A stretch of 14,627 nucleotides of DNA from Tardiphaga sp. (GTDB lineage: Bacteria > Pseudomonadota > Alphaproteobacteria > Rhizobiales > Xanthobacteraceae). This document shows, one piece after another, positions 1 through 13,835 of this stretch. Position 1 is the first letter of the stretch. Each line of letters begins with the position of its first letter. The stretch is from assembly GCA_028290765.1 (NCBI GenBank), contig JAQGJF010000066.1:1-14627 (forward strand). Reading direction: 5' to 3'. The notes under the pieces were generated by a model that was not told where the DNA came from, searched no databases, and saw only the letters and a list, made by a program, of their open reading frames with translations. A program made the position numbers and the translations under genes.

Positions 1-1239
1 GTTGCCGGCGACAAAATGCTCGACGAAATCGGCGACGCTGGTCGGGACCCAGGCAAAATAGGCGCCGGAGGTGAAATTCGCGGCGCAGCGCACGAACAGT
101 TCGGGCGTGATGTTGATCTGGGGTGCGGCACCGAGCGATGCGGCGAGCAGCACTTTCCAGCTCGCGGCATAGACCGGCGGTTCGGCGATGGTGCGCTCGT
201 CGTCGGCCAGCGCCATCTTCGCCCGCAATTTGAGCGCCACCAGATCCGGCGATCTGCCGGGGGGCAACTGCAGCAGGCGGGTCAGGTTGGCGATCACGAC
301 ATTGACCTGGGGTCGCAGTTCCGAGATGTCGGGCGGCATTGGGGGCGGTTTCGAATCGGCGGCGTCGAGCGCGTCGAACATCAGATGCGCCGCCGCCAGT
401 CCGGCCATCGGATCGGCGAACTTTTCATTGATCAGGATGTTCAGGATCCTCGGCGAAGCGCCGATCAGGCTGCCGGTGGCGAGCGCCAGGCGGGCGATCT
501 CGCTGCTTTCGTTGACCGGCTCCAGCGCGACGGGCGCGTTGACGCGCGTCATGTGGATGGCGACGTCGAGGAGATCGTTGCTTTTGGTCTGGGCCGGACG
601 CAGCTTCGACGGCACGGCCTGACGGCGGACGAACACCCGCGTCTGCCAGCGCGGCGAAACCGGGATAGCCTGCTCCGAAACGCGCATGCCGTCGTCGATC
701 TGAACGACATAGGTCCCGGCCTCGAGCGCCGTGCCGGCGATCGCCCATGCTTCACCGCCGATGACGTGACCCTCGGTGGCGGGAATCCGGGACGGATCGC
801 CGCCGGGACTCCAGCGCACCAGCCGTACCGCCGCCAGTGGCCAGGCCTCCGCTGCCTCGCCATCTGAAGGCGGCGGCGCCGGGATGCGTCCGACGAGCAG
901 CAGCCTCGAGGGGGTCTGTCCGCCGTCAACCTCGTCGGCCAGTTTCTCGATCTGCGCCAGGGCCTGCGGCTCCATCGTCCGCCGGAACGGCACCGTGGTG
1001 TCGAGGCCGGGCACGTCGATCCTGATTTCGGTGTCCCCGTCGAGTTCCAGCAGCCGCTCGGCGCCGGCCGAGGCACGCGTGGCCTTGATGCGGTAAAGCC
1101 CGTTCGGCTGCACGGTCCGCAGTTCGCCGACCGCGCGCGCAACCAGTTGCCGGTCATTGCCGATCAGGAATATCTCGGCATCGACATGTGTCGTCACCCG
1201 CAGCGAAGCCGTGTCCGGTATCGGCTGTACATCAGGCAT
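1..1239 (-). CDS. Unrecognised protein downstream of the caspase gene, 3' end outside window
   Basis: I do not recognise this protein and assign no function. The frame is open from an ATG at 1239 to the left edge (413 codons, no stop), so the C-terminus is missing. The ATG lies inside the end of the caspase gene (8-base overlap), which points to translational coupling in one operon. Residues 1-85 look beta-rich, like the small beta-sandwich domains often attached to bacterial caspases. Residues 110-210 form a second beta-rich segment that includes the stretch EAGTYVVQIDDG. From about 220 the protein becomes helical, with a notable FADPMAGLAAAHLMF at 274-288. No signal peptide or membrane helix is seen in the visible part. 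Codon use is even and GC-rich, and the other frames here translate into arginine-rich shadow sequence. As an operon partner it could be a substrate, regulator or effector of the two proteases; this is inference only. Confidence 0.85.
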   Translation of the reverse strand, partial: MPDVQPIPDTASLRVTTHVDAEIFLIGNDRQLVARAVGELRTVQPNGLYRIKATRASAGAERLLELDGDTEIRIDVPGLDTTVPFRRTMEPQALAQIEKLADEVDGGQTPSRLLLVGRIPAPPPSDGEAAEAWPLAAVRLVRWSPGGDPSRIPATEGHVIGGEAWAIAGTALEAGTYVVQIDDGMRVSEQAIPVSPRWQTRVFVRRQAVPSKLRPAQTKSNDLLDVAIHMTRVNAPVALEPVNESSEIARLALATGSLIGASPRILNILINEKFADPMAGLAAAHLMFDALDAADSKPPPMPPDISELRPQVNVVIANLTRLLQLPPGRSPDLVALKLRAKMALADDERTIAEPPVYAASWKVLLAASLGAAPQINITPELFVRCAANFTSGAYFAWVPTSVADFVEHFVAGN

Positions 1240-2314
1240 CGAGCTTGGCCTCGTCGGTGATCTCGATCAGCCGGCTGCCCTGGCCCCAATCCAGCTTGTA
1301 GAGGCCGGGCGGCAGTTCTTGGTCGAGGACGCCGCCATGGACGACGACTGTGCCGATCAGGCTGCGGGCGTGATCGAAGACCCGCACCGAGGTCCCATCC
1401 GGCAGCGTGCCCCCGCCATCGGGCGCGATCCGGATGCTTCTCGGCTTGGCGGTTGCGGGTGCCGTTGCGGGCGAGACGAACTCCATATCGTCGGCAGCGA
1501 GGAAATCGGGTTCGCGCGAAATTCCGGTTCGATCCGGCAATGGCAACTTGTCGATATGGGCGGCGACCGCCTTGAATAGGTAGGCCGTCAGGTCGCGGGT
1601 GCGAATGCCGCCGGTGGCGGGATTGATGGCGGCACCGCGCAATCCGCGCAGTAGTTCGTAGGTGAAGACGCTGTGAAATTCGCCGCCGGGCCCGAGCGGA
1701 AGTTCGATCGCCTGTAACGGAAACGCCGCGGCGCAGGCGGTGAACTGCGGCGCCGGTGGATTCAGGGCTTCGGTGATCTGAAACGGCGGCAGCGAAGGGA
1801 TGAGGGTGACCTGGGCCTGGGAGCAGAAGTCCATCCACAGCACATATTCGGAGAAGAAGAGTGAATTGCTCAGATTATCCTGCCACGCGGTCGCCATCAC
1901 ATGATCGATGAAGGTTTTGGCGAGCGCATTCGAGGTCACCAGCGCCCGCTTGGATTTCTCTGGAGCAAGGCCGTGACCGGAAAAATATAGATACAACCGG
2001 CGCCCTACCTGAGGCCCCTTGCCGGCGTTGACGTTTTCGTCGGACTTGACGACAAGGTCGGTGATCCATTGGTCGATATCATCGCGGACCGGTCGCGGTG
2101 GTCGCTCCACCCACGCCGCGCCGTTGTTTTGCACGGAGGTCAATAGCGTGATGTTCTTGACGCCAAGCTGCTCGCGCAGGAACTTTTCCATGGCGATGGC
2201 GTCATTGATCGGAGCCCGCAAATTGTTGGGTTCGGCGGGCGTTTTTCCGTATCTGGGATAGTTGGCGATTCCCACTACCAGTGCCCAATCGTCGGCACCA
2301 TTGACCATGGCCAT
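1232..2314 (-). CDS. Caspase-family (peptidase C14, p20-like) protease with C-terminal beta domain
   Basis: This is a 360-residue cysteine protease of the caspase/metacaspase clan. An N-terminal strand at 11-18 (ALVVGIAN) is followed by the acidic helix region at 33-50. The catalytic His is H114 in YLYFSGHG (109-115 region), and the catalytic Cys is C164 in WMDFCSQ (160-166). The segment around 212-226 (FHSVFTYELLRGLRG) matches the strand-helix that follows the active site in prokaryotic caspases. Residues about 290-355 form a small beta-sandwich-like domain that may bind the partner protein. No signal peptide is seen, so it is probably cytoplasmic. Prokaryotic caspases usually cut after basic residues; nothing here tests that. 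It starts 14 bases after the metzincin gene and overlaps the next gene by 8 bases. ATG at 2314 is used; an in-frame ATG at 2308 is also possible, and the ribosome site is weak for both. Confidence 0.93.
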   Translation of the reverse strand: MAMVNGADDWALVVGIANYPRYGKTPAEPNNLRAPINDAIAMEKFLREQLGVKNITLLTSVQNNGAAWVERPPRPVRDDIDQWITDLVVKSDENVNAGKGPQVGRRLYLYFSGHGLAPEKSKRALVTSNALAKTFIDHVMATAWQDNLSNSLFFSEYVLWMDFCSQAQVTLIPSLPPFQITEALNPPAPQFTACAAAFPLQAIELPLGPGGEFHSVFTYELLRGLRGAAINPATGGIRTRDLTAYLFKAVAAHIDKLPLPDRTGISREPDFLAADDMEFVSPATAPATAKPRSIRIAPDGGGTLPDGTSVRVFDHARSLIGTVVVHGGVLDQELPPGLYKLDWGQGSRLIEITDEAKLDA

Positions 2315-2328
2315 GACACCCGGCCCCG

Positions 2329-3048
2329 TCAGAAGTAGATGCTTTGGATGAGCGCCTTGTCCTGCGGCGAGAGGGTCGCATTGAAACTGGTGGTGAATCC
2401 GTCCTGGGTCCAGTTCGCCGGTATTTGGTACATCATGATGGACGTCTTATCGACGCCGGTCGCGATCACCGCGTCCTTGTCGTATTTCTTGAAGATGTTG
2501 TGCTCGATGGTGGCTGCGTCCCAGTTGTTCGGCGGGCCGCTCAGTTCAGCCTCGACCGCGGGACGGTCCCAATTGATGCCGTCTTTCGGATTCTGATGTT
2601 CGTGAATCAGTCCGAGTGCGTGGCCGAATTCGTGCAGCACCACCGAGCGCACGTCCTCGTCGGTCGAAGTGTCATCGAGCCACCCGAAATTCATCGTCGG
2701 CTTGTCCTTGGCGATGGTTTTGCACTGCGTGCCGAGGTAGGACCACGACCCGTTGCCCGGCTTGAAGGCGATCCGGACATTGGCGGTTTTCGGATCGACG
2801 CTGGGATCGGTCAAGAAAGCAAACCTGACTTTCGCGCCGGCCTCGGTGATCCAGAGTTTGGCGGCATCCGCGACTTTTTTGCACAGAGCGGGGGAGCCTT
2901 CCAGAAATCCAACGGTGATCATCGGGTTGGGTCCCCAGAACGCCTCCTTGAGCAATGCTGCCTTGCGGCCGAGAACGGCAGCTTCGCTGGCCGGTGACAG
3001 GCCAGACGGGTTGGGGCACATGCAAAAGCATAATTTGGTGAGGGCCAT
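2329..3048 (-). CDS. Metzincin zinc metalloprotease, astacin-like (M12A type)
   Basis: From the ATG at 3048 the protein has 239 residues. The zinc site HEFGHALGLIHE (139-150) fits HExxHxxGxxHE: H139, H143 and H149 bind zinc and E140 is the general base. The Glu after the third His is typical of astacins. The Met-turn SIMMY (203-207) supplies the tyrosine expected of astacins (Y207). No signal peptide is visible, which is unusual because most astacins are secreted; the N-terminus instead carries CFCMC (7-11). ATG 3048 was chosen because AAGGAG lies 6 bases upstream (3055-3060). A longer in-frame version could start at TTG 3207, adding 53 residues that include in-frame repeats. The gene is first in the operon with the caspase gene. 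Family assignment rests on motifs; the exact subfamily is less certain. Confidence 0.9.
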   Translation of the reverse strand: MALTKLCFCMCPNPSGLSPASEAAVLGRKAALLKEAFWGPNPMITVGFLEGSPALCKKVADAAKLWITEAGAKVRFAFLTDPSVDPKTANVRIAFKPGNGSWSYLGTQCKTIAKDKPTMNFGWLDDTSTDEDVRSVVLHEFGHALGLIHEHQNPKDGINWDRPAVEAELSGPPNNWDAATIEHNIFKKYDKDAVIATGVDKTSIMMYQIPANWTQDGFTTSFNATLSPQDKALIQSIYF

Positions 3049-3117
3049 GTCTTTCTCCTTGTCGAGAGGGCCTTTCTCCTTGTCGAAAGGGCCTTTGTCG
3101 AAATCGTCTTTGTTGAA
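3049..3117 (-). repeat. Short tandem repeat that carries the ribosome-binding site
   Basis: Four head-to-tail units lie directly upstream of the metzincin ATG, read on the minus strand: 15 bases (3103-3117), 15 (3088-3102), 21 (3067-3087) and 18 (3049-3066). The core is TTCGACAAGGAGAAAGGCCC, with the AGGAGA part missing from the first two. The last two units each carry AAGGAG, and the last copy is correctly spaced to the start codon. All unit lengths are multiples of three, so the repeat could also be translated if a start further upstream is used. Confidence 0.8.
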
Positions 3118-3191
3118 ATAGCCGTGTTGTCGAAATCGCTCTGCCGGGCAAACCAATGGCCCTTGCTCGAAAGTTAGTTTGAATATCGACG

Positions 3192-3225
3192 GACGGCTGT
3201 GAACCAATTCACTGACGGCTGCGAA
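3192..3225. promoter_or_regulatory. Operator-like direct repeats flanking a small palindrome
   Basis: GACGGCTGTGAA (3192-3203) and GACGGCTGCGAA (3214-3225) are direct repeats with a 22-base period, two helical turns. A small inverted repeat, GTGAA-CCAA-TTCAC (3199-3212), overlaps the first copy and the spacer. They lie in the AT-richer divergent region between the metzincin gene and the small membrane protein gene, where a regulator of the locus could bind. No promoter boxes could be fixed with confidence at 3050-3360. Confidence 0.4.
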
Positions 3226-6394: not shown

Positions 6395-6435
6395 GTGTGA
6401 CAGGTAGCGGGGGACGGGGGCGTCTGCTTCGCGCC

Positions 6436-7409
6436 TCAGTCCACCGACACGCCGGCGAATTCCACCACCTTGCGCCACTTATCGGTCTCGTCGGCGACCA
6501 GCTTGCCGAATTCCGCCGGTGTCATCGGCTTCGGAATTCCGCCGACTTCGCCAAGTCGCGCGACCAGTTTGGGATCCTTCAGCGCTTCGCCGACCGCCTT
6601 GTTGAGAAGGTCGATGATTTCGGGCGGCGTGCCCTTGGGCGCGGAGATGCCGTAGAACCCGACCGACTCGAAGCCGGGTACGGTCTCGGCGATCGCCGGA
6701 ACGTCCGGCACGCTGGGCCAGCGCTGCGGCGAGGTGACGCCGAGTGCGCGCACGGTGCCGCCGCGGGCCTGCTCGAGGGCGGAGGGCAGATTGTCGAAGA
6801 TCAGCTGGACCTTGTTGGAAATGATGTCGGGAAATGCCAGGGCCGATCCGCGATAGGGCACATGGATCATGTCGACCTTGGTCATGGCCTTGAACAGTTC
6901 CGCCGACATATGCACCGAGGTGCCGTTGCCCGATGAGGCATAGGAGACCTTGCCCGGATTGGCCTTCAGTAGTCGATGAACTCCTGGACGGTTTTCACCG
7001 GCAGGTCGTTCGACACCACCAGCATATTGGTCAGTTGCATGATGCTGGCGACCGGCGTGGTGTCGCGGATGAAATCGTAAGACAGCTTCTTGTAGAGCGA
7101 GGTCGAGATGGCGTTGTTGGGCGCGACGAACAGCAGCGTGTAGCCGTCGGGCGGCGAATTGATCGCGGCGGCCGCGGCGATATTGCCGCCGGAACCGGCG
7201 CGATTTTCCACCACGAATTGCTGGCCGAAACGATCCGACAACCACTGCGCCATGATCCGCGCCACGATGTCGACCGGGCCGCCGGCGGCAAACCCGATCA
7301 GCCAGCGCACCGGTCGGTTCGGATAGTCCGCCGCGGCGGCCGGCACCACAGTGGTGGCGAGACAGAGAAGGCAGACCAAGCCCGACAGTGCGGCGCGCAG
7401 AAATTTCAT
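6436..7409 (-). pseudogene. TctC/Bug-family periplasmic solute-binding protein gene, frameshifted
   Basis: Two overlapping frames together encode a full-length Bug protein, the binding component of tripartite tricarboxylate transporters. The N-terminal part starts at ATG 7409 (GGGAG upstream) with a signal peptide (cleavage near AAA-ADYPNRP) and has the family's PNRPVRWLIGFAAGGPVD and VENRAGSGGNIA. It reaches an early stop at 6966-6968 after VQEFIDY. The rest continues in another frame with LLKANPGKVSYASSGNGTS, IHVPYRG, QLIFDNLPSALE and so on to 6436. One base is missing near 6970-6971: adding one restores FIDxLKANPGK, the expected family sequence. It is either a recent pseudogene or a sequencing error; both halves are otherwise intact. 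No TctA or TctB membrane genes are nearby, which is usual for Bug proteins. A 7-bp hairpin (7435-7451) precedes the ribosome site. Confidence 0.9.
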
Positions 7410-7586
7410 CAAGTTATCTCCCTCAATTGTTTCGGCCCGGCGCTGCCGGGCAGCGTCACGAAACCGTCGAGCTTTTGCCGCTCGTTGCCGGTATGGTTTC
7501 ACAGAAAACGCGGATTGCCTAGCGCATGAGATTCACGGCGCAGCGCGCTGGCCTCGCTTGCGGGGAAAGGTCGGCTCCTGGTGACG

Positions 7587-7886
7587 TCACGTGCGCAGCA
7601 AGCGCAGCACGGCGGCGGTCGCAGCAATCAAGGCCAGAACAATAACGGCCGCCCGCCAAACAAGCTGCTGTCGTGCGGTGCGCTCGTCGTGGAACGCAAG
7701 CCAGTCCCGGACGAATCCCGCCGGAATGTCAAATATGACAGCGCGCCTGCCGGGATGATGCGTTTCGTGATCGGCGAACATCGTCCGCACGTTCGTCAGT
7801 CCCAATCGCTCAAGCTCGCAATTCCACTCCCATGCGTGCTTGCCGTTGGTCCATCGGTTTTCGAAGGGAAGCCTGTGCGATTTCAT
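7587..7886 (-). CDS. Small tail-anchored protein, unknown function
   Basis: I do not recognise this 99-residue protein. It has a hydrophilic N-terminal part with several His and Trp residues (ADHETHHPGRR at about 38-48, DWLAFHDERTARQQ at about 61-74). A single hydrophobic helix near the C-terminus (about 76-95) ends in LLRT. No signal peptide is seen, so it is probably inserted by its tail with the bulk in the cytoplasm. The start is well supported: AAGGAGG lies 6 bases before ATG 7886. It is divergent from the riboswitch-TAXI unit, and the 295-base gap between them holds that unit's promoter and riboswitch. No terminator is seen after it. Confidence 0.8.
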   Translation of the reverse strand: MKSHRLPFENRWTNGKHAWEWNCELERLGLTNVRTMFADHETHHPGRRAVIFDIPAGFVRDWLAFHDERTARQQLVWRAAVIVLALIAATAAVLRLLRT

Positions 7887-7939
7887 CGCGAACCTCCTTC
7901 AAATCTCCTTGTTCATTGGTTTATCCATTCTAGCACCAT

Positions 7940-7968
7940 TTGCCGAAAAATACCGAACCGATTAGTCT
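7940..7968 (+). promoter_or_regulatory. Possible promoter of the riboswitch-TAXI transcript
   Basis: TTGCCG (7940-7945) and TAGTCT (7963-7968) are separated by 17 bases and would start transcription just before the aptamer. The match to the sigma-70 consensus is modest; position is the main support. Confidence 0.35.
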
Positions 7969-7983
7969 CTACGCCGTTACCAG

Positions 7984-8036
7984 ACGGGGATGGAGTCTCC
8001 CGTAACCGCTCCGTCGCAGGGGTTAATGACTCCTAC
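7984..8036 (+). promoter_or_regulatory. Fluoride riboswitch aptamer (crcB motif)
   Basis: The segment has the conserved parts of the fluoride aptamer in order. First comes the GGGGATGGAGTCTCCC hairpin (7986-8001; stem 7984-7989 with 7998-8003). Then come TAACCGC (8003-8009), a short variable stem (CTCC 8009-8012 with GGGG 8019-8022), and TTAATGACTCCTACC (8023-8037). The loop bases GGAGTC (7992-7997) are exactly complementary to GACTCC (8028-8033), the defining pseudoknot. The match to the known B. cereus and Thermotoga aptamers, recalled from memory, is close at all these positions. Such RNAs bind fluoride with magnesium and normally turn on fluoride exporters (crcB/fluc, clcF) and a few metabolic genes. 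Here the next plus-strand gene is a TAXI-type binding protein about 145 bases downstream. Confidence 0.92.
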
Positions 8037-8075
8037 CGCGTTTTGGCGCGGTGGGACCGTGCCTCCACCGCACGG
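8031..8075 (+). promoter_or_regulatory. Riboswitch expression platform: competing hairpin plus second hairpin
   Basis: TCCTACCGCG (8031-8040) pairs with CGCGGTGGGA (8047-8056) in a 10-bp stem (one G-T pair, loop 8041-8046). This stem uses the aptamer's own pseudoknot strand, so hairpin and fluoride-bound aptamer exclude each other. A second 6-bp hairpin follows directly (8057-8062 with 8070-8075), then a short TTTT at 8086-8089. The layout suggests fluoride-dependent antitermination, but the poor T-run leaves room for Rho-dependent control. The remaining stretch 8090-8171 shows nothing else I can name. Confidence 0.7.
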
Positions 8076-8181
8076 GTGGATTCGCTTTTCATTGCCGTTC
8101 GTGGACGGCAAATCGCATTGCGCTTTGCTTAATAATTTTGCATTGATCGCGCATCGCTGGCTCAACGCGTGAGGACAGTCA

Positions 8182-9147
8182 ATGAAGATCATCGAGTTCG
8201 TTTGCGCAGGTCTGCTGCTGGCGAGCGGCGCGATGGCGCAGGATGGAGGACGGGTCATTCAAAAGACGAGCATTAGCCTGGGCACGGCAACGCCGGGCGG
8301 CGGGTTTCCATTATATGGCGGCGCCTTTGCCGAGGTCATGAACCAGGCCGATCCGACCCTTTCGATCGAGCCGCGCAACACCAAGGGCAGCAACGAGAAC
8401 ATTCCGCTGCTGGAACAGGGTCAGCTCGATCTCGCGCTGGTCGCCGGCGAGCCCGCCTACGAAGCCTTCATGGGCATTGGCGGCCGTCCCCGCACCAATC
8501 TGAAGATTCTCACCGCGATCTATTCCAATCCCGGCATGTTCGTGGTGCGCGCGGACAGTCCCTACAAGACCATCCGCGACCTGGTCGGCAAGCCGATCGC
8601 GTTCGGCGCGAAGGGCTCCGGCCTGCCAATCCTGTCGCGCTACGTGCTCGACGGGCTCGGCCTCGAGCAGGACAAGGATTTCGGCGCGATCTATCTCGAC
8701 CGCGCCGGTGACGGGCCGGCGATGCTGGAAGACGGCCGGGTCGCCGCACTGTGGGGCGCTGGCCTCGGCTGGCCGGGGTTTGCCGCCGTGGCCAGCAGTC
8801 CGGGCGGCGCGCGCTTCATCGCACCGGATGCCGGCGAGATCGCGCGCATCCAGGCCAAGCACAGCTTTCTCAAACCGATGACGGTGCCGGCCGGCAGTTA
8901 CCCGAACCAGAACGCGCCGATCAACTCGCTGGGGTCATGGAGTTACGTGCTGGTGCGCCCGACGCGCGAAGACGAGGTCGCCGATCGCTTGGCCGGGACA
9001 CGGCACCTAGCCGAAACAGCGCTTGGCAACAAGCTCGCCCAGGCCAAGGAAACCACCGCGGCCAACACGGTGGCGGCGGCGCCGAGCCTCGACCTGATCC
9101 ATCCTGGCGTGCTGCGCTATCTGCGCGAGATCGGGCTGGTGAAGTGA
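8182..9147 (+). CDS. TAXI-family TRAP transporter solute-binding protein
   Basis: A 321-residue periplasmic binding protein. A signal peptide (1-19, cleavage after GAMA) is followed by the TAXI opening ISLGTATPGGGFPLYGGAFAEVMN, then NTKGSNENIPLLEQGQLDLALV, LTAIYSNPGMFVV and VGKPIAFGAKGSGLPILSRYVLDGLG. All are typical of TRAP-associated extracytoplasmic proteins. The family normally delivers a solute such as an organic acid to a fused DctQM-type membrane permease. No such permease lies in the window, so this is an orphan whose partner is elsewhere or absent. The ligand cannot be read from sequence. ATG 8182 is preceded by GAGGA. The upstream fluoride riboswitch implies induction by fluoride, an unusual setting for this family. 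It converges on the ABC binding protein gene across a large inverted repeat. Confidence 0.93.
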   Translation: MKIIEFVCAGLLLASGAMAQDGGRVIQKTSISLGTATPGGGFPLYGGAFAEVMNQADPTLSIEPRNTKGSNENIPLLEQGQLDLALVAGEPAYEAFMGIGGRPRTNLKILTAIYSNPGMFVVRADSPYKTIRDLVGKPIAFGAKGSGLPILSRYVLDGLGLEQDKDFGAIYLDRAGDGPAMLEDGRVAALWGAGLGWPGFAAVASSPGGARFIAPDAGEIARIQAKHSFLKPMTVPAGSYPNQNAPINSLGSWSYVLVRPTREDEVADRLAGTRHLAETALGNKLAQAKETTAANTVAAAPSLDLIHPGVLRYLREIGLVK

Positions 9148-9151
9148 GGCG

Positions 9152-9243
9152 GCGAATAGGGAGTAGCGAATAGCGAGTAGAGGGCTGAAGCCTTGCTATT
9201 CGCTACTCACTACTCCCTATTCGCTTCTTCACGCGCTATTCGC
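9152..9243. repeat. Inverted repeat built from a tandem heptamer, between convergent genes
   Basis: Arms 9152-9180 and 9196-9224 are 29 bases each and complementary at 26 positions, with a 15-base loop. Each arm is itself a tandem of a degenerate 7-base unit (GCGAATA, GGGAGTA, GCGAATA, GCGAGTA). One more inverted copy lies at 9233-9243. It begins 4 bases past the TAXI stop and ends 5 bases before the ABC gene's stop, so it probably ends or insulates both transcripts. It resembles dispersed intergenic repeats I associate with Bradyrhizobium relatives. Confidence 0.85.
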
Positions 9244-9247
9244 GACT

Positions 9248-10456
9248 TTACTTCTTCACCATCGGACACGCCGGATCCATCGGCCCGAACGCCTCTTCGC
9301 CCGGAATCTTCGCGAGAATCTTGTAGTAGTCCCACGGATACTTGGATTCTTCCGGGGTCTTGACCTGCACCAGCATCAAATCGTGCACCATCAGATTGTC
9401 CTCGCGCAGTTTGCCGTTGCGGGCGAAGAAATCCTCGATCGGCTTTTCGCGCATTTTGGCCGCCACCTTCAGCGGCTCGTCGGTGCCGGCTTCCTTGATG
9501 GCGGTGAGATAGGACATCACCGAGGAATAGACGCCGGCCTGCCACATCGAGGGCATCTGGTTCATCTTGGCGAAATAGCGCTTCGACCATTCGCGGGTCT
9601 TGTCGTCCATGTCCCAGTAGAACGACGTCGTCAGCAGCAGGCCTTGCGCGGCCGCGAGCCCCAGCGAGTGAACGTCGGTGATCAGCACCAGCAGGCCGGC
9701 CATCTGCTGACCGCCCTTGAAGATGCCGAATTCGCCGCCTGTCTTGATCTCGTTGACATTGTTCGGCGGTCCGCCGGCGATACCGATGATTTTGGCTTTC
9801 GAGGCCTGCGCCTGCAGCACGAATGACGACAGATCGGGCGTGCCGTAGGGAGGCCGCACCGATCCGACCACCTTGCCGCCGTTCTTGACGATCACGGCGG
9901 AGGCGTCCCGTTCCAGCGAGTGTCCGAACGCGTAATCGTCGGTGATGAAGAACCAGCTGTCGCCGCCGCGCTTGACCACTTCCTGCGCGGTGCCGACCGC
10001 CAGCGCGTGGGTGTCGAACACCCACTGCATGGTATAGGGCGTGCAGAACTTGCCGTGGAAATCCGCCGTGCCGGTGGAATGGGCGATGAACATCTTCTTC
10101 TTGTCGTTGGCGATGTTCTGTACCGCCAGCCCGACCGCCGAGATCGGCACGTCGACGATCAGATCGACCTGCTCGATGTCGTACCAGCGCCGCGCGATGC
10201 CGGCGCCGATATCCGGTTTGAGCTGGTGATCGCCGACCACCACGGTGATCGGCTTGCCCAGCACCTTGCCGCCGAAATCCTCGACCGCCATCTGCGCCGC
10301 GGTGACCGAGCCCTTGCCGGTCGGGCTGGACGCCGGCCCGTTCATGTCGGTGAGAACGCCGATCTTGACCACGTCGTCGGACACCTGCGCCTGTGCCAGC
10401 GATGGCGACAGCAGCGCGGCGAGCAAGCCGGTCGCGGCGATTTTTCCAAGATGCAT
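9248..10456 (-). CDS. Branched-chain-amino-acid-type ABC transporter substrate-binding protein
   Basis: A 402-residue type I periplasmic binding protein of the LivJ/Peripla_BP_6 group. A signal peptide (1-23, cleavage after AQA) is followed by the usual opening VVKIGVLTDMNGPAS (29-43), then VEDFGGKVLGKPITVVVGDHQ and RRWYDIEQVDLIVDVPISAV. The hinge region TDDYAFGHSLERD and the end of the second lobe, FFARNGKLREDNLMVHDL, also fit. Proteins of this group bind amino acids, aromatic acids, amides and other small organics; the ligand is not predictable here. No permease or ATPase genes are adjacent, so it is an orphan in this window. ATG 10456 is preceded by GGGAGG 8 bases upstream. Its promoter must lie in 10457-10686, shared with the divergent moeA-like gene and largely filled by a palindromic element. 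Confidence 0.95.
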   Translation of the reverse strand: MHLGKIAATGLLAALLSPSLAQAQVSDDVVKIGVLTDMNGPASSPTGKGSVTAAQMAVEDFGGKVLGKPITVVVGDHQLKPDIGAGIARRWYDIEQVDLIVDVPISAVGLAVQNIANDKKKMFIAHSTGTADFHGKFCTPYTMQWVFDTHALAVGTAQEVVKRGGDSWFFITDDYAFGHSLERDASAVIVKNGGKVVGSVRPPYGTPDLSSFVLQAQASKAKIIGIAGGPPNNVNEIKTGGEFGIFKGGQQMAGLLVLITDVHSLGLAAAQGLLLTTSFYWDMDDKTREWSKRYFAKMNQMPSMWQAGVYSSVMSYLTAIKEAGTDEPLKVAAKMREKPIEDFFARNGKLREDNLMVHDLMLVQVKTPEESKYPWDYYKILAKIPGEEAFGPMDPACPMVKK

Positions 10457-10527
10457 TATGTATCCCTCCCAGCGGCGCGTTGGCCGTATTGTTTGATTGG
10501 TCCGAAGCTTAGCCTACGCATTTCAAC

Positions 10528-10686: not shown

Positions 10687-11832
10687 ATGGTCCACCATTC
10701 TCCGATGACCACCACGCAACGACTGCCGTCTTCGCTCACGCCGCTCGATGCCGCGCTGGCGATGCTGCTCGATGGACTTTCGCCCGTCGCCCCGCGCGAA
10801 CTGCCGCTCGACGAGGCGCTGGGCTGCGTTGCCGCGGAGATGCCCGCGTTGAAGGCGCTCCCGGCCCGTAACATCGCCGCCGCCGACGGCTGGGCGTTCC
10901 GGGCCCGCGATCTGGTCGGCGCCTCGTCCTATTCACCGTTGCCGCTGGCGCAGCCGCCGGTCTGGGTCGAGGCCGGCGATGCCATGCCTGGCGGTTGCGA
11001 CTGCGTGGTCGATGCCGATCTGGTCGAAGCGGCGGGACCGATCGTTCACGTGGTGGCGGAAGCGTTTCCGGGACAGGGCGTCCGTCGCGCCGGCGAGGAT
11101 GTTGCGGAAGGTAACCGCGTCATCGCAGCCGGGACGCCCGTTCGGGCGACCGATCTGCTGGTCGCTCGCGTTGCAGGATCGAAGGCGTTTGCGGTGCGCC
11201 GTCCGCGCCTGCGTCTGGTCGGCGTGCCGACGACGGCTGGAACAAATGCGACCGCTCAACTCATCGCTGAGTTGGCGAAAGCCGCCGGCGCCGCGGTCAT
11301 GCGCGCCGAAACGACGGGCAGGGATACCGCTTCGATCGCGACGGCGTTGGATGCAAGCGCCTGCGATGTCCTGATCATCGTAGGCGGCACCGGTGTTGGC
11401 CGCAGCGATGCGACGGTCGAGGCGCTCGCTGCCCGTGGCAAGGTTCTGGCGCATGGCGTCGCGCTGCGACCGGGCCCGACCGCCGCGATCGGCACGATCG
11501 CCGGCATTCCCGTCATCGCCTTGCCCGGCGCCCCCGACCAGGCGCTGGCGGTGTGGTGGACGCTGGCGCTGCCGTTGCTGGACCGGTTGTCGGCCCGGCA
11601 ACCGCGATCGATGTTGAGGTTACCGCTGGCGCGCAAGATCGCTTCCGGCGTCGGTGTCGCCGAAATCGTGCTGCTCGAGCAAGTCGAAAATAGCTGGGTG
11701 CCGCTGGCATCCGGCGAGCTGTCGCTCGATGCCATCGCCCGCGCCGATGCATGGTTGGCGGTTCCGGCCGGCAGCGAGGGATTTGCGGCGGGCACGCCGG
11801 TCGATGCCTATATGATGCAGGATCGATCGTGA
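10687..11832 (+). CDS. Diverged MoeA-like molybdopterin-binding protein
   Basis: A 381-residue cytoplasmic protein of the MoeA family, which inserts molybdate into adenylylated molybdopterin. Retained motifs include AADGWAFRARD (65-75), GDAMPGGCDCVV (97-108), RRAGEDV (133-139), GGTGVGRSD (233-241) and HGVALRPGPTAAIG (256-269) with LPGAPDQAL (279-287). The usual TGDEL and DSNG motifs at the start of the MPT-binding domain are missing; the matching place reads VGVPTTAGTNATAQ (178-191). It may therefore be a non-catalytic or altered paralogue working with the MoeA encoded directly downstream, whose start it overlaps by 4 bases. ATG 10687 is used, but an in-frame ATG at 10705 is equally possible; neither has a clear ribosome site. 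Confidence 0.9.
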   Translation: MVHHSPMTTTQRLPSSLTPLDAALAMLLDGLSPVAPRELPLDEALGCVAAEMPALKALPARNIAAADGWAFRARDLVGASSYSPLPLAQPPVWVEAGDAMPGGCDCVVDADLVEAAGPIVHVVAEAFPGQGVRRAGEDVAEGNRVIAAGTPVRATDLLVARVAGSKAFAVRRPRLRLVGVPTTAGTNATAQLIAELAKAAGAAVMRAETTGRDTASIATALDASACDVLIIVGGTGVGRSDATVEALAARGKVLAHGVALRPGPTAAIGTIAGIPVIALPGAPDQALAVWWTLALPLLDRLSARQPRSMLRLPLARKIASGVGVAEIVLLEQVENSWVPLASGELSLDAIARADAWLAVPAGSEGFAAGTPVDAYMMQDRS

Positions 11833-13835
11833 GCGGTGCCGACATGCCGAATTCGCCGACCTCTAAAAATAGCGGTACCGTCGAGCAGGAGCAGTTCCTG
11901 ACCATCCTCTCCCGCGAGGATGCGCTGGCGCGATTCGAGGCCGCGTTGTTTCCCCGCGCCGCCTTGAGCGAGACCCGATTGCTGGGCGATGCGCTCGGCC
12001 ACGCACTGGCGCAGGACGTCGTGGCGCCGATCGATGTGCCACCGTTCGACCGTTCCAATGTCGATGGCTTTGCGGTGCGTTCCGCGGATATCGCCGCCGC
12101 AAGCGAGGCGGCGCCGGTTCGGATGCGGCTCAACGACGAGATCATCACCTGCGGCACCGCGCCGACGCGGCCGGTGCTGACAGGAACCGCGACGTCGATT
12201 GCGACAGGCGGCCCGGTGCCGCGCGGCGCCGATGCCATTGTCATGGTCGAACATACCGAACCCGTTTCCGCCAATACCATCTCGATTCGCCGCGCCGCAT
12301 CTCCCGGACAGTTCGTCTCCTATGCCGGCTCCGATATCGCACGCAGCGAGGCGTTATTACGCGCCGGCACCGTGATCGGCTCGCGCGAGATCGGCATGCT
12401 CGCCGCCTGCGGTATCGCCGAGGTGCCGGTGGCGCGCCGGCCGCGCGTCGCGGTGATCTCCACCGGTGACGAGTTGGTGCAGCCCGGGTTGCCGCTACGG
12501 CCCGCCGCGATCTACGACAGCAACGGCGCCATCGTCACCGCGGCGGTGAACGAGAATGGCGGCGATGCGGTCTTTCTCGGCGCCGTTGTCGACGACGAAC
12601 AAGCGCTCGAAACAGTGATGCGCCAGGCGCTCGAAAGCTCCGACATGCTGGTGCTGTCGGGCGGCACCTCGAAAGGTGCCGGCGACGTTTCCCATCGCAT
12701 CATCGGCCGGCTCGGTGGGCCGGGCATCATCGCGCACGGCGTGGCGCTGAAGCCGGGCAAGCCGTTATGCCTGGCGGTTTGCGACGGCAAGCCGGTGGTG
12801 ATCCTGCCGGGCTTTCCGACCTCGGCGATGTTCACCTTTCACGACATGATCGTACCGGTGCTGCGCCGCATGGCCGGGCTGCGGCCGCGCGCCGACGCGA
12901 AAGTCACGGCAAAGGTCCCGGTACGGATCGCCTCTGAACTCGGTCGCACCGAATTCGTCATGGTGTCGCTGGTCGAGGGTTCGGAAGGCCTGATCGCCTA
13001 TCCCACCGGCAAGGGCTCCGGCGCCATCACCTCGTTCGCGCAAGCCGACGGCTTTCTCAAGATCGATGCGCTGGCGGATCAGATGCCCTCGGGGACAGAA
13101 GCCGAGGTGACGCTGTTCACGCCGCATGTGCGGGTGCCTGATCTCGTCATCGTCGGCAGCCATTGCACCGGCCTCGATCTGGTCACGGCGCCGTTGTCGC
13201 GGGCGGGGCTTTCCGTGCGCTCGATTGCGGTCGGCAGCCTCGGAGGCCTCGCGGCCGCCAAGCGCGGCGAATGCGATCTGGCGCCGATCCACCTGTTCGA
13301 CGAGAGGACCGAAAGCTACAACATATCGTATCTCAGCGAAGGCCTCGAACTGGTGCCGGGCTGGCGCCGCATGCAAGGCATCGTATTTCGCGCCGATGAC
13401 AAGCGCTTTGACGGCCTCGATGCGCAGGGCGCGGTGCGTGCGGCACTGGCCGATCCCGCCTGCATCATGGTCAATCGCAACCAGGGCGCCGGCACCCGCA
13501 TCCTGATCGATCGCCTGCTGGGCTCAGCGCGTCCCGACGGCTACTGGAACCAGCCGCGCTCGCACAACGCGGTCGCAGCCGCGGTGGCCCAAGGCCGCGC
13601 CGACTGGGGCATGACCATCGCGCCGGTCGCGCATGCGGCGGGCTTAGGATTCATTCCGCTGGCGGAAGAACATTATGATTTCGCACTGGTGAGCGCGCGC
13701 AAGGATCGCCCGGCGGTGCAGGCGTTTTTGCAGTCGCTGGCGTCGGAAGCGAGCCGCGATGCGCTGACCGCGGCGGGTTTTCGGGTGCTTCCTTCTCCCT
13801 CCCCCCTTGCGGGGGAGGGTCGGGGTGGGGGGTAG
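11829..13835 (+). CDS. moeA: MoeA molybdopterin molybdotransferase fused to a PBP-like domain
   Basis: A 668-residue fusion. Residues about 23-430 are a complete MoeA with the expected motifs: NVDGFAVRS (77-85), GGPVPRGADAIVMVEHT (127-143), AGSDI (166-170), STGDELV (211-217), DSNGA (230-234), SGGTSKGAGD (277-286), HGVALKPGKPL (303-313) and LPGFPTSA (326-333). Residues about 436-652 are a periplasmic-binding-protein-like domain without a signal peptide (VGSHCTGLDL, NRNQGAGTRILIDRLL), a known partner of MoeA in many bacteria that may sense molybdate or a cofactor. GTG 11829 overlaps the upstream stop as GTGA and has AGGA 6 bases before it; ATG 11844 is an alternative. The last 12 or so residues (PSPSPLAGEGRGGG) are encoded by a palindromic repeat and are probably not ancestral. 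Confidence 0.94.
   Translation: MSGADMPNSPTSKNSGTVEQEQFLTILSREDALARFEAALFPRAALSETRLLGDALGHALAQDVVAPIDVPPFDRSNVDGFAVRSADIAAASEAAPVRMRLNDEIITCGTAPTRPVLTGTATSIATGGPVPRGADAIVMVEHTEPVSANTISIRRAASPGQFVSYAGSDIARSEALLRAGTVIGSREIGMLAACGIAEVPVARRPRVAVISTGDELVQPGLPLRPAAIYDSNGAIVTAAVNENGGDAVFLGAVVDDEQALETVMRQALESSDMLVLSGGTSKGAGDVSHRIIGRLGGPGIIAHGVALKPGKPLCLAVCDGKPVVILPGFPTSAMFTFHDMIVPVLRRMAGLRPRADAKVTAKVPVRIASELGRTEFVMVSLVEGSEGLIAYPTGKGSGAITSFAQADGFLKIDALADQMPSGTEAEVTLFTPHVRVPDLVIVGSHCTGLDLVTAPLSRAGLSVRSIAVGSLGGLAAAKRGECDLAPIHLFDERTESYNISYLSEGLELVPGWRRMQGIVFRADDKRFDGLDAQGAVRAALADPACIMVNRNQGAGTRILIDRLLGSARPDGYWNQPRSHNAVAAAVAQGRADWGMTIAPVAHAAGLGFIPLAEEHYDFALVSARKDRPAVQAFLQSLASEASRDALTAAGFRVLPSPSPLAGEGRGGG

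Follow-up and report, generated by a model that had tools for sequence, protein, structure and literature searches.

A fluoride riboswitch aptamer inserted ahead of a TAXI-family solute-binding protein gene: a possible case of regulatory capture

Why should a fluoride riboswitch stand in front of the gene for a TAXI-family solute-binding protein? The arrangement occurs in a 14,627-nucleotide stretch of Tardiphaga sp. DNA, analysed here in full (the window), and its preliminary description had proposed that the protein may counter fluoride stress, may handle an organofluorine acid or may be part of an unrecognised fluoride response. The common targets of fluoride riboswitches are said to include exporters, Na+/H+ antiporters, pyrophosphatase, enolase and formate hydrogen lyase (PMC11139923), and an early survey (PMC2864571) names genes for DNA repair, for K+ or Cl- transport and for formate hydrogen lyase; no report of a TAXI or TRAP target was found in the open-licence literature. 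The answer that we narrowly favour is regulatory capture, in which an inserted fluoride switch would now precede TAXI in one lineage, the protein having no dedicated role in the response to fluoride.

The fluoride aptamer and its competing hairpin

The preliminary description had reported a close match to the crcB/fluoride aptamer and had suggested a covariance search with the Rfam model RF01734. That search was significant, the model matching 7977-8042 of the plus strand from end to end (model positions 1-64) at 39.1 bits (E 6e-8), which exceeds the gathering score of 34 bits; at E <= 0.1 the whole window gave no match to Rfam besides the fluoride aptamer. An independent covariance model, R1, built on 19 aptamers found elsewhere in the bacterial family, with the window left out, scored the element at 43.1 bits (E 5.4e-11 in the 996,093 bases searched), and the runner-up among those bases reached 12.8 bits. 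R1 was built on alignment A3, which omits L093, L095, L101, L110 and L082 of alignment A2, and shorter or variant aptamers consequently score lower with it. Sub-cut-off matches in six related genomes peak at 21 bits. The aptamer comprises P1 (7986-7989/7998-8001), P3 (8008-8011/8020-8023), in which two of the pairs are G-U, and a pseudoknot of 6 bp without mismatch that joins the P1 loop (7992-7997, GGAGTC) to the 3' strand (8028-8033, GACTCC), precisely where it had been noticed at the outset. Judged by its sequence, this is a true fluoride riboswitch aptamer, which would be expected to bind fluoride.

The score of the window aptamer ranks 75th among 85 aligned family matches (two places being listed twice), and the element therefore lies on the weak side of the family. 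In the 85-row alignment the foot of P3 carries a C to U change found in the window alone (1 of the 83 rows with a letter), and a G to A change next to the ligand site is present in 3 of 84 rows, the window included. It could be argued from these features that the aptamer is an orphan relic, which arrived by insertion and either is not transcribed into TAXI from a promoter of its own or is followed by a separate promoter, in 8090-8172, that drives the gene, so that TAXI would not respond to fluoride. We regard this explanation as possible but doubtful. It should be emphasized, however, that the pseudoknot is intact, as are the linchpin bases and those that we take to contact the ligand, two neighbouring bases deviating, and that members of the aptamer cluster of genome G263 (see below) likewise score 36-45 bits. 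The linchpin of the fluoride riboswitch is named as A40-U48 in PMC11077080.

Downstream, an 11-bp hairpin with a UUUG loop (8031-8056, plus strand; -19.1 kcal/mol in the predicted fold) takes three bases of the pseudoknot's 3' strand and would thus compete with the pseudoknot. In the predicted fold the element therefore has an expression platform of this competing type, and a hairpin overlapping the 3' pseudoknot strand is the arrangement described for fluoride riboswitches in PMC13273304. The stability of the 8026-8130 fold (z -3.92) was equalled by none of 200 shuffles; the fold of the whole leader, 7977-8200, is unremarkable (z -1.16, with 23 of 200 shuffles equally stable). Counted inward from 8032, the second-last base of the pseudoknot strand, the window hairpin has 10 pairs. 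Of 125 family aptamers, 52 have at least 8 such pairs, a length that 1.8% of simple shuffles reach, and 9, window included, have at least 10. The hairpin is thus among the longest, which again argues against an orphan relic.

By a simple test neither a U-rich tail nor a masked ribosome or start site lies immediately 3' of 8031-8056, and the same test finds neither output signal in 62 of the 98 family aptamers with a helix of at least 6, the window among them. A terminator scan and folding point to a weak terminator-like hairpin at 8064-8080 with a UUCGCUUUUC tail (8064-8090 overall, plus strand). The scan, which covered both strands of 7500-8300, returned 2 terminator-like sites against 1.0 expected by chance, this hairpin being the one on the plus strand, and no clear terminator was seen in the leader downstream of the aptamer. 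The weakness of this terminator, the missing U tract and the unremarkable fold of the whole leader count against control of TAXI by the riboswitch. A clean terminator/antiterminator switch (8048-8054/8065-8071, by eye) was considered and rejected, as in the predicted folds an RNA that extends to 8090 contains the weak terminator whichever state it is in.

The TAXI gene and the targets of fluoride aptamers in relatives

The TAXI gene (8182-9147, plus strand; 321 aa), whose start aligns with those of relatives, begins 139 bases downstream of the aptamer. Its product matches TIGR02122 over the full length at 249.4 bits (cut-off 84.35) and the Pfam family NMT1_3 at 128.6 bits, has a signal-peptide-like N terminus (by eye) and is related to PDB entries 1us4, 8s4j and 9ibo; the early identification of the next downstream gene as encoding a TAXI-type binding protein is upheld by the TIGR02122 score. 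PMC11574862 reports that a Vibrio TAXI protein binds glutamate and names Y45, Q93 and E125 as contacts. At these positions the window protein has F, A and N, in an alignment read by eye, and on that reading glutamate was rejected as its ligand since the main contact residues are replaced. A Pfam scan of ten ORFs of the window, a set that leaves aside the ORF at 1-1239 and many small or overlapping ORFs, found neither a TRAP membrane subunit nor a dehalogenase. A TAXI protein partnered with a different permease is on record (PMC12344293).

It is conceivable that fluoride-induced TAXI aids survival, for instance through carboxylate uptake that would refill central metabolism under enolase inhibition. 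Such adaptive recruitment would be in keeping with the intact parts of the switch, with the depletion of PEP and TCA intermediates by fluoride in Pseudomonas putida (PMC11139923) and with the glutamate bound by the Vibrio protein. The replacement of the Vibrio contacts by F, A and N, the lack of a TRAP membrane subunit among the ten scanned ORFs and the unconserved pairing of aptamer and gene described below all argue against it, however, and we consider it improbable; any benefit that the TAXI protein might confer under fluoride is speculative.

The closest homologues of the TAXI protein are metagenomic (94-98% identical). Relatives from named genomes are mostly Bradyrhizobium, plus a Tardiphaga record, with 72-80% best-segment identity across 80 loci, and a further match set spans 57-80% identity. 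The preliminary description had proposed comparing the upstream regions of orthologous TAXI genes, a comparison that went against a shared fluoride function: the aptamer was found at 0 of the 80 loci (R1; best other score 12.8 bits), at 0 of 30 further loci (L121-L150) and at 0 of another 8 (L201-L208), in sets that overlap in species and cover ~0.4 to 6 kb of upstream DNA. RF01734 itself, applied to 11 of the 80 loci, likewise found no aptamer. The window thus stands alone among the loci examined in associating the aptamer with TAXI, and a conserved TAXI-fluoride link was rejected on these counts.

Fluoride aptamers themselves are common, being present in 195 of 391 genomes of the family (E <= 1e-4), in 28 of 249 genomes of the order (E <= 1e-6) and in 4 of 18 genomes of the genus of G175. 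A census of their targets took in 124 aptamer places besides that of the window, for 121 of which a downstream ORF was chosen by a GC3-weighted picker that can still err, together with 32 further places, giving 156 contexts; the places are unevenly drawn, many coming from few genomes and 22 from one contig. Named by their representatives, the clusters of targets include CrcB (45), Na+/H+ exchanger (10), MFS (8), NADH-dehydrogenase-like (8) and enolase (4), and the TAXI gene of the window clusters alone. There are 33 other clusters; for 32 of them a representative was scanned with Pfam, and no solute-binding family was matched. Of these representatives 12 have no Pfam family at all, and some of these may be wrongly picked ORFs. 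At the 32 further places, 26 targets match the earlier set, with no binding protein among them, and the remaining six are assigned by Pfam to CLC (three), MFS (one), a GDT1/OFeT-like protein (one) and a phosphatase (one), again with no solute-binding family. Across the orthologue loci and the 156 other contexts, no repeated association of the TAXI family with fluoride aptamers was observed.

The census also brought to light contig C49 of G263 (L151-L154; 73,244 bases), which is a dense fluoride regulon. It carries 22 distinct fluoride aptamers (36-73 bits), including four divergent pairs, and their targets comprise enolase, pyrophosphatase, histidine phosphatase, NUDIX, cytochrome oxidase I and IlvD/Edd, as well as GH15, CMAS, dynamin-like, DedA-like and LuxR genes. 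A protein family of 120-165 residues was found downstream of fluoride aptamers, with nine members (L093, L095, L153, L156, L217, L221, L224, L226 and L240), of which L240 was scanned and has no Pfam match. At L093, L217, L224 and L240 the family gene and an aptamer ahead of an NADH-dehydrogenase-like gene are divergently oriented.

The inserted block and the sequence preceding the aptamer

In three relatives, G345, G175 and G249, tctC (minus strand) and TAXI (plus strand) are divergent and close together, and the gene order tctC - TAXI - ABC binding protein - moeA - moeA - mobA is common to G345 and the window. A remnant of the divergent intergenic region is retained in the window at 7492-7521 (motif TATGGTTTCACAG...TTGCCTA), as seen in pairwise alignments with the three relatives and by MAFFT with 14 of 110 relatives. 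It is followed by a block of ~630 bases (7522-8154) that is missing from the tctC-TAXI gap of the three aligned genomes and that contains a small hypothetical gene, on the minus strand, and the fluoride aptamer. Homology on the left stops at 7521 with G345 and G175, with a weak gapped extension to 7617 with G249, and on the right it resumes at 8155 (G249) or 8171 (G345); a weak gapped alignment with G175 reaches back to 8092, and the edges of the block can for that reason be placed only to within tens of bases. By eye, CGCTGGC occurs as a direct repeat of 7 bases, at 7546-7552 and again at 8155-8161, which may reflect the insertion event or chance. That the block was misjoined during assembly is very improbable, as this would need two independent false joins ~630 bases apart, with tctC on one side and the TAXI-to-mobA genes on the other in the order of G345. 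Searching 265 genomes of one genus for copies of the block gave 58 places, 55 matching the small gene with its start region and 3 the aptamer core, and none matching both the small gene and the aptamer. A plasmid origin was rejected, no plasmid record covering 80% of 6400-10500.

The flanks of the locus have features of their own. A frame shift near 6965, natural or due to a sequencing error, splits the tctC gene (6436-7502, minus strand) into two overlapping ORFs. The gene at 11751-13835 (plus strand) combines a MoeA with a periplasmic-binding-protein-like domain (PF12727) and has a second MoeA and MobA as neighbours. Further away, a caspase-like (Peptidase_C14) gene (1232-3207, minus strand) adjoins a metalloprotease-like gene and is unmatched in the relatives' loci that were searched.

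The small gene of the block, u99 (7587-7886, minus strand), encodes a conserved hypothetical protein of 99 aa and is divergent from the riboswitch. It is present in 33 of 391 family genomes; a homologue search gave 252 proteins at E <= 0.001, and NCBIfam gave no match. At 30 fetched loci (of 34 places) u99 lies beside an aptamer only once, in G371, which belongs to the genus that includes a Bradyrhizobium jicamae genome; there it is divergent from an aptamer preceding a Na+/H+ exchanger gene (PF00999). This unit (L169) resembles the window in its divergent arrangement with u99, but the exchanger is absent from the window, TAXI is in its place and the spacers cannot be aligned above shuffles (129 of 500 shuffles as good for 7887-7975). 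Common descent of the spacer with G371 was accordingly rejected, the likeness being to G175 instead. Indeed, the 89 bases at 7887-7975, which stop 1 base before the aptamer match, align with the u99 upstream region of G175 at a score of 45 that none of 500 shuffles reached, and this remained so (0 of 500) when the first 24 bases were removed. Shorter alignments were obtained with G249 and G130, and the u99 upstream region is alike in G175 and G249 for ~120 bases before it diverges. In G175 no aptamer was found in the genome, the u99 upstream region included. The likeness suggests that u99 brought its own upstream region with it, the aptamer starting right behind.

No other result weighs as much against control of TAXI by the aptamer as this likeness to G175, and it lowers the probability that we assign to such control. 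Since the 89 preceding bases match the u99 upstream region of a genome in which no aptamer was found, the junction may have cost the aptamer its own promoter, which favours the explanation of the aptamer as an orphan relic. A weak and doubtful promoter-like sequence, TTGCCG-17-TAGTCT (7940-7968, plus strand), lies just before the aptamer and may or may not serve as its promoter. In a set of 121 family aptamers, TTG is over-represented at 35-44 bases ahead of P1 and promoter-like signals fall in the 44 bases before P1; in the window the TTG is at 49, the corresponding stretch is largely u99 upstream region, and TTGCCG recurs without an aptamer in G175 and G249. On the other hand, a sigma-70 scan of 7500-8300 returned no promoter site at all, and hence none for TAXI alone, although such a scan is weak evidence in this phylum.

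The relic explanation also draws on the genes around the aptamer. By tblastn the window contains no counterpart of the aptamer-linked Na+/H+ exchanger, CrcB, MFS or EamA proteins (E 1e-7), nor of the three CLC proteins, another MFS, the GDT1/OFeT-like protein or the phosphatase (E 1e-3). The earlier statement that no exporter is nearby therefore holds within the window, and an exporter relic inside it was rejected. In G240 and G354 (L249-L251), the TAXI-moeA-mobA neighbourhood includes aptamers ~4-11 kb past mobA, one followed by two crcB-like genes and another by a Na+/H+ exchanger gene; the window ends at mobA, and an exporter of its own could lie just outside.

Regulatory capture as the preferred reading

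Regulatory capture takes up the computed aptamer, hairpin, insertion relative to relatives and unconserved pairing as follows. A short block bearing the aptamer, u99 and the u99 upstream region would have entered the gap that separates the old tctC/TAXI region from the TAXI start, making TAXI the first gene downstream of the riboswitch. When fluoride-Mg2+ is bound the pseudoknot would keep its 3' strand, the hairpin at 8031-8056 would not form and downstream expression would be predicted to rise, as in an ON switch, with transcription presumably running from the aptamer on into TAXI. On these features it is plausible that fluoride controls the gene. That a riboswitch plugged before TAXI by transposition now makes solute capture fluoride-inducible, which would add an uptake-side target to the fluoride response, appears unlikely. 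The preliminary description was thus right to place a fluoride riboswitch before TAXI, in both coordinates and gene; the roles that it offered for the protein in counteracting stress, in organofluorine handling or in an unrecognised response are not supported, given the insertion, a pairing confined to the window among the loci examined, and no dehalogenase or TRAP membrane subunit among the ten scanned ORFs.

If TAXI is indeed switched by fluoride, the locus would show clearly how, in nature, a riboswitch can acquire a new target when a short block is inserted between a promoter region and a gene, with the ancestral and derived arrangements both visible at the tctC-TAXI locus. Switching of TAXI would not in itself add a new fluoride-resistance function, and the locus cautions that a single riboswitch-gene pairing is a poor guide to gene function.

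Compared with TAXI TRAP solute-binding proteins (TIGR02122; 1us4, 8s4j, 9ibo), the window protein shows a full-length family match, but its gene has no TRAP membrane subunit in view nearby and, by eye, other residues stand at the main positions through which the Vibrio protein contacts glutamate. Relative to riboswitches of RF01734, the window differs in its target, a TAXI binding protein in place of an exporter, exchanger or fluoride-sensitive enzyme, in the two G-U pairs of P3 and in having no U tract after the switching hairpin, but it shares with them the aptamer, the pseudoknot, P1, P3 and a hairpin that overlaps the 3' pseudoknot strand.
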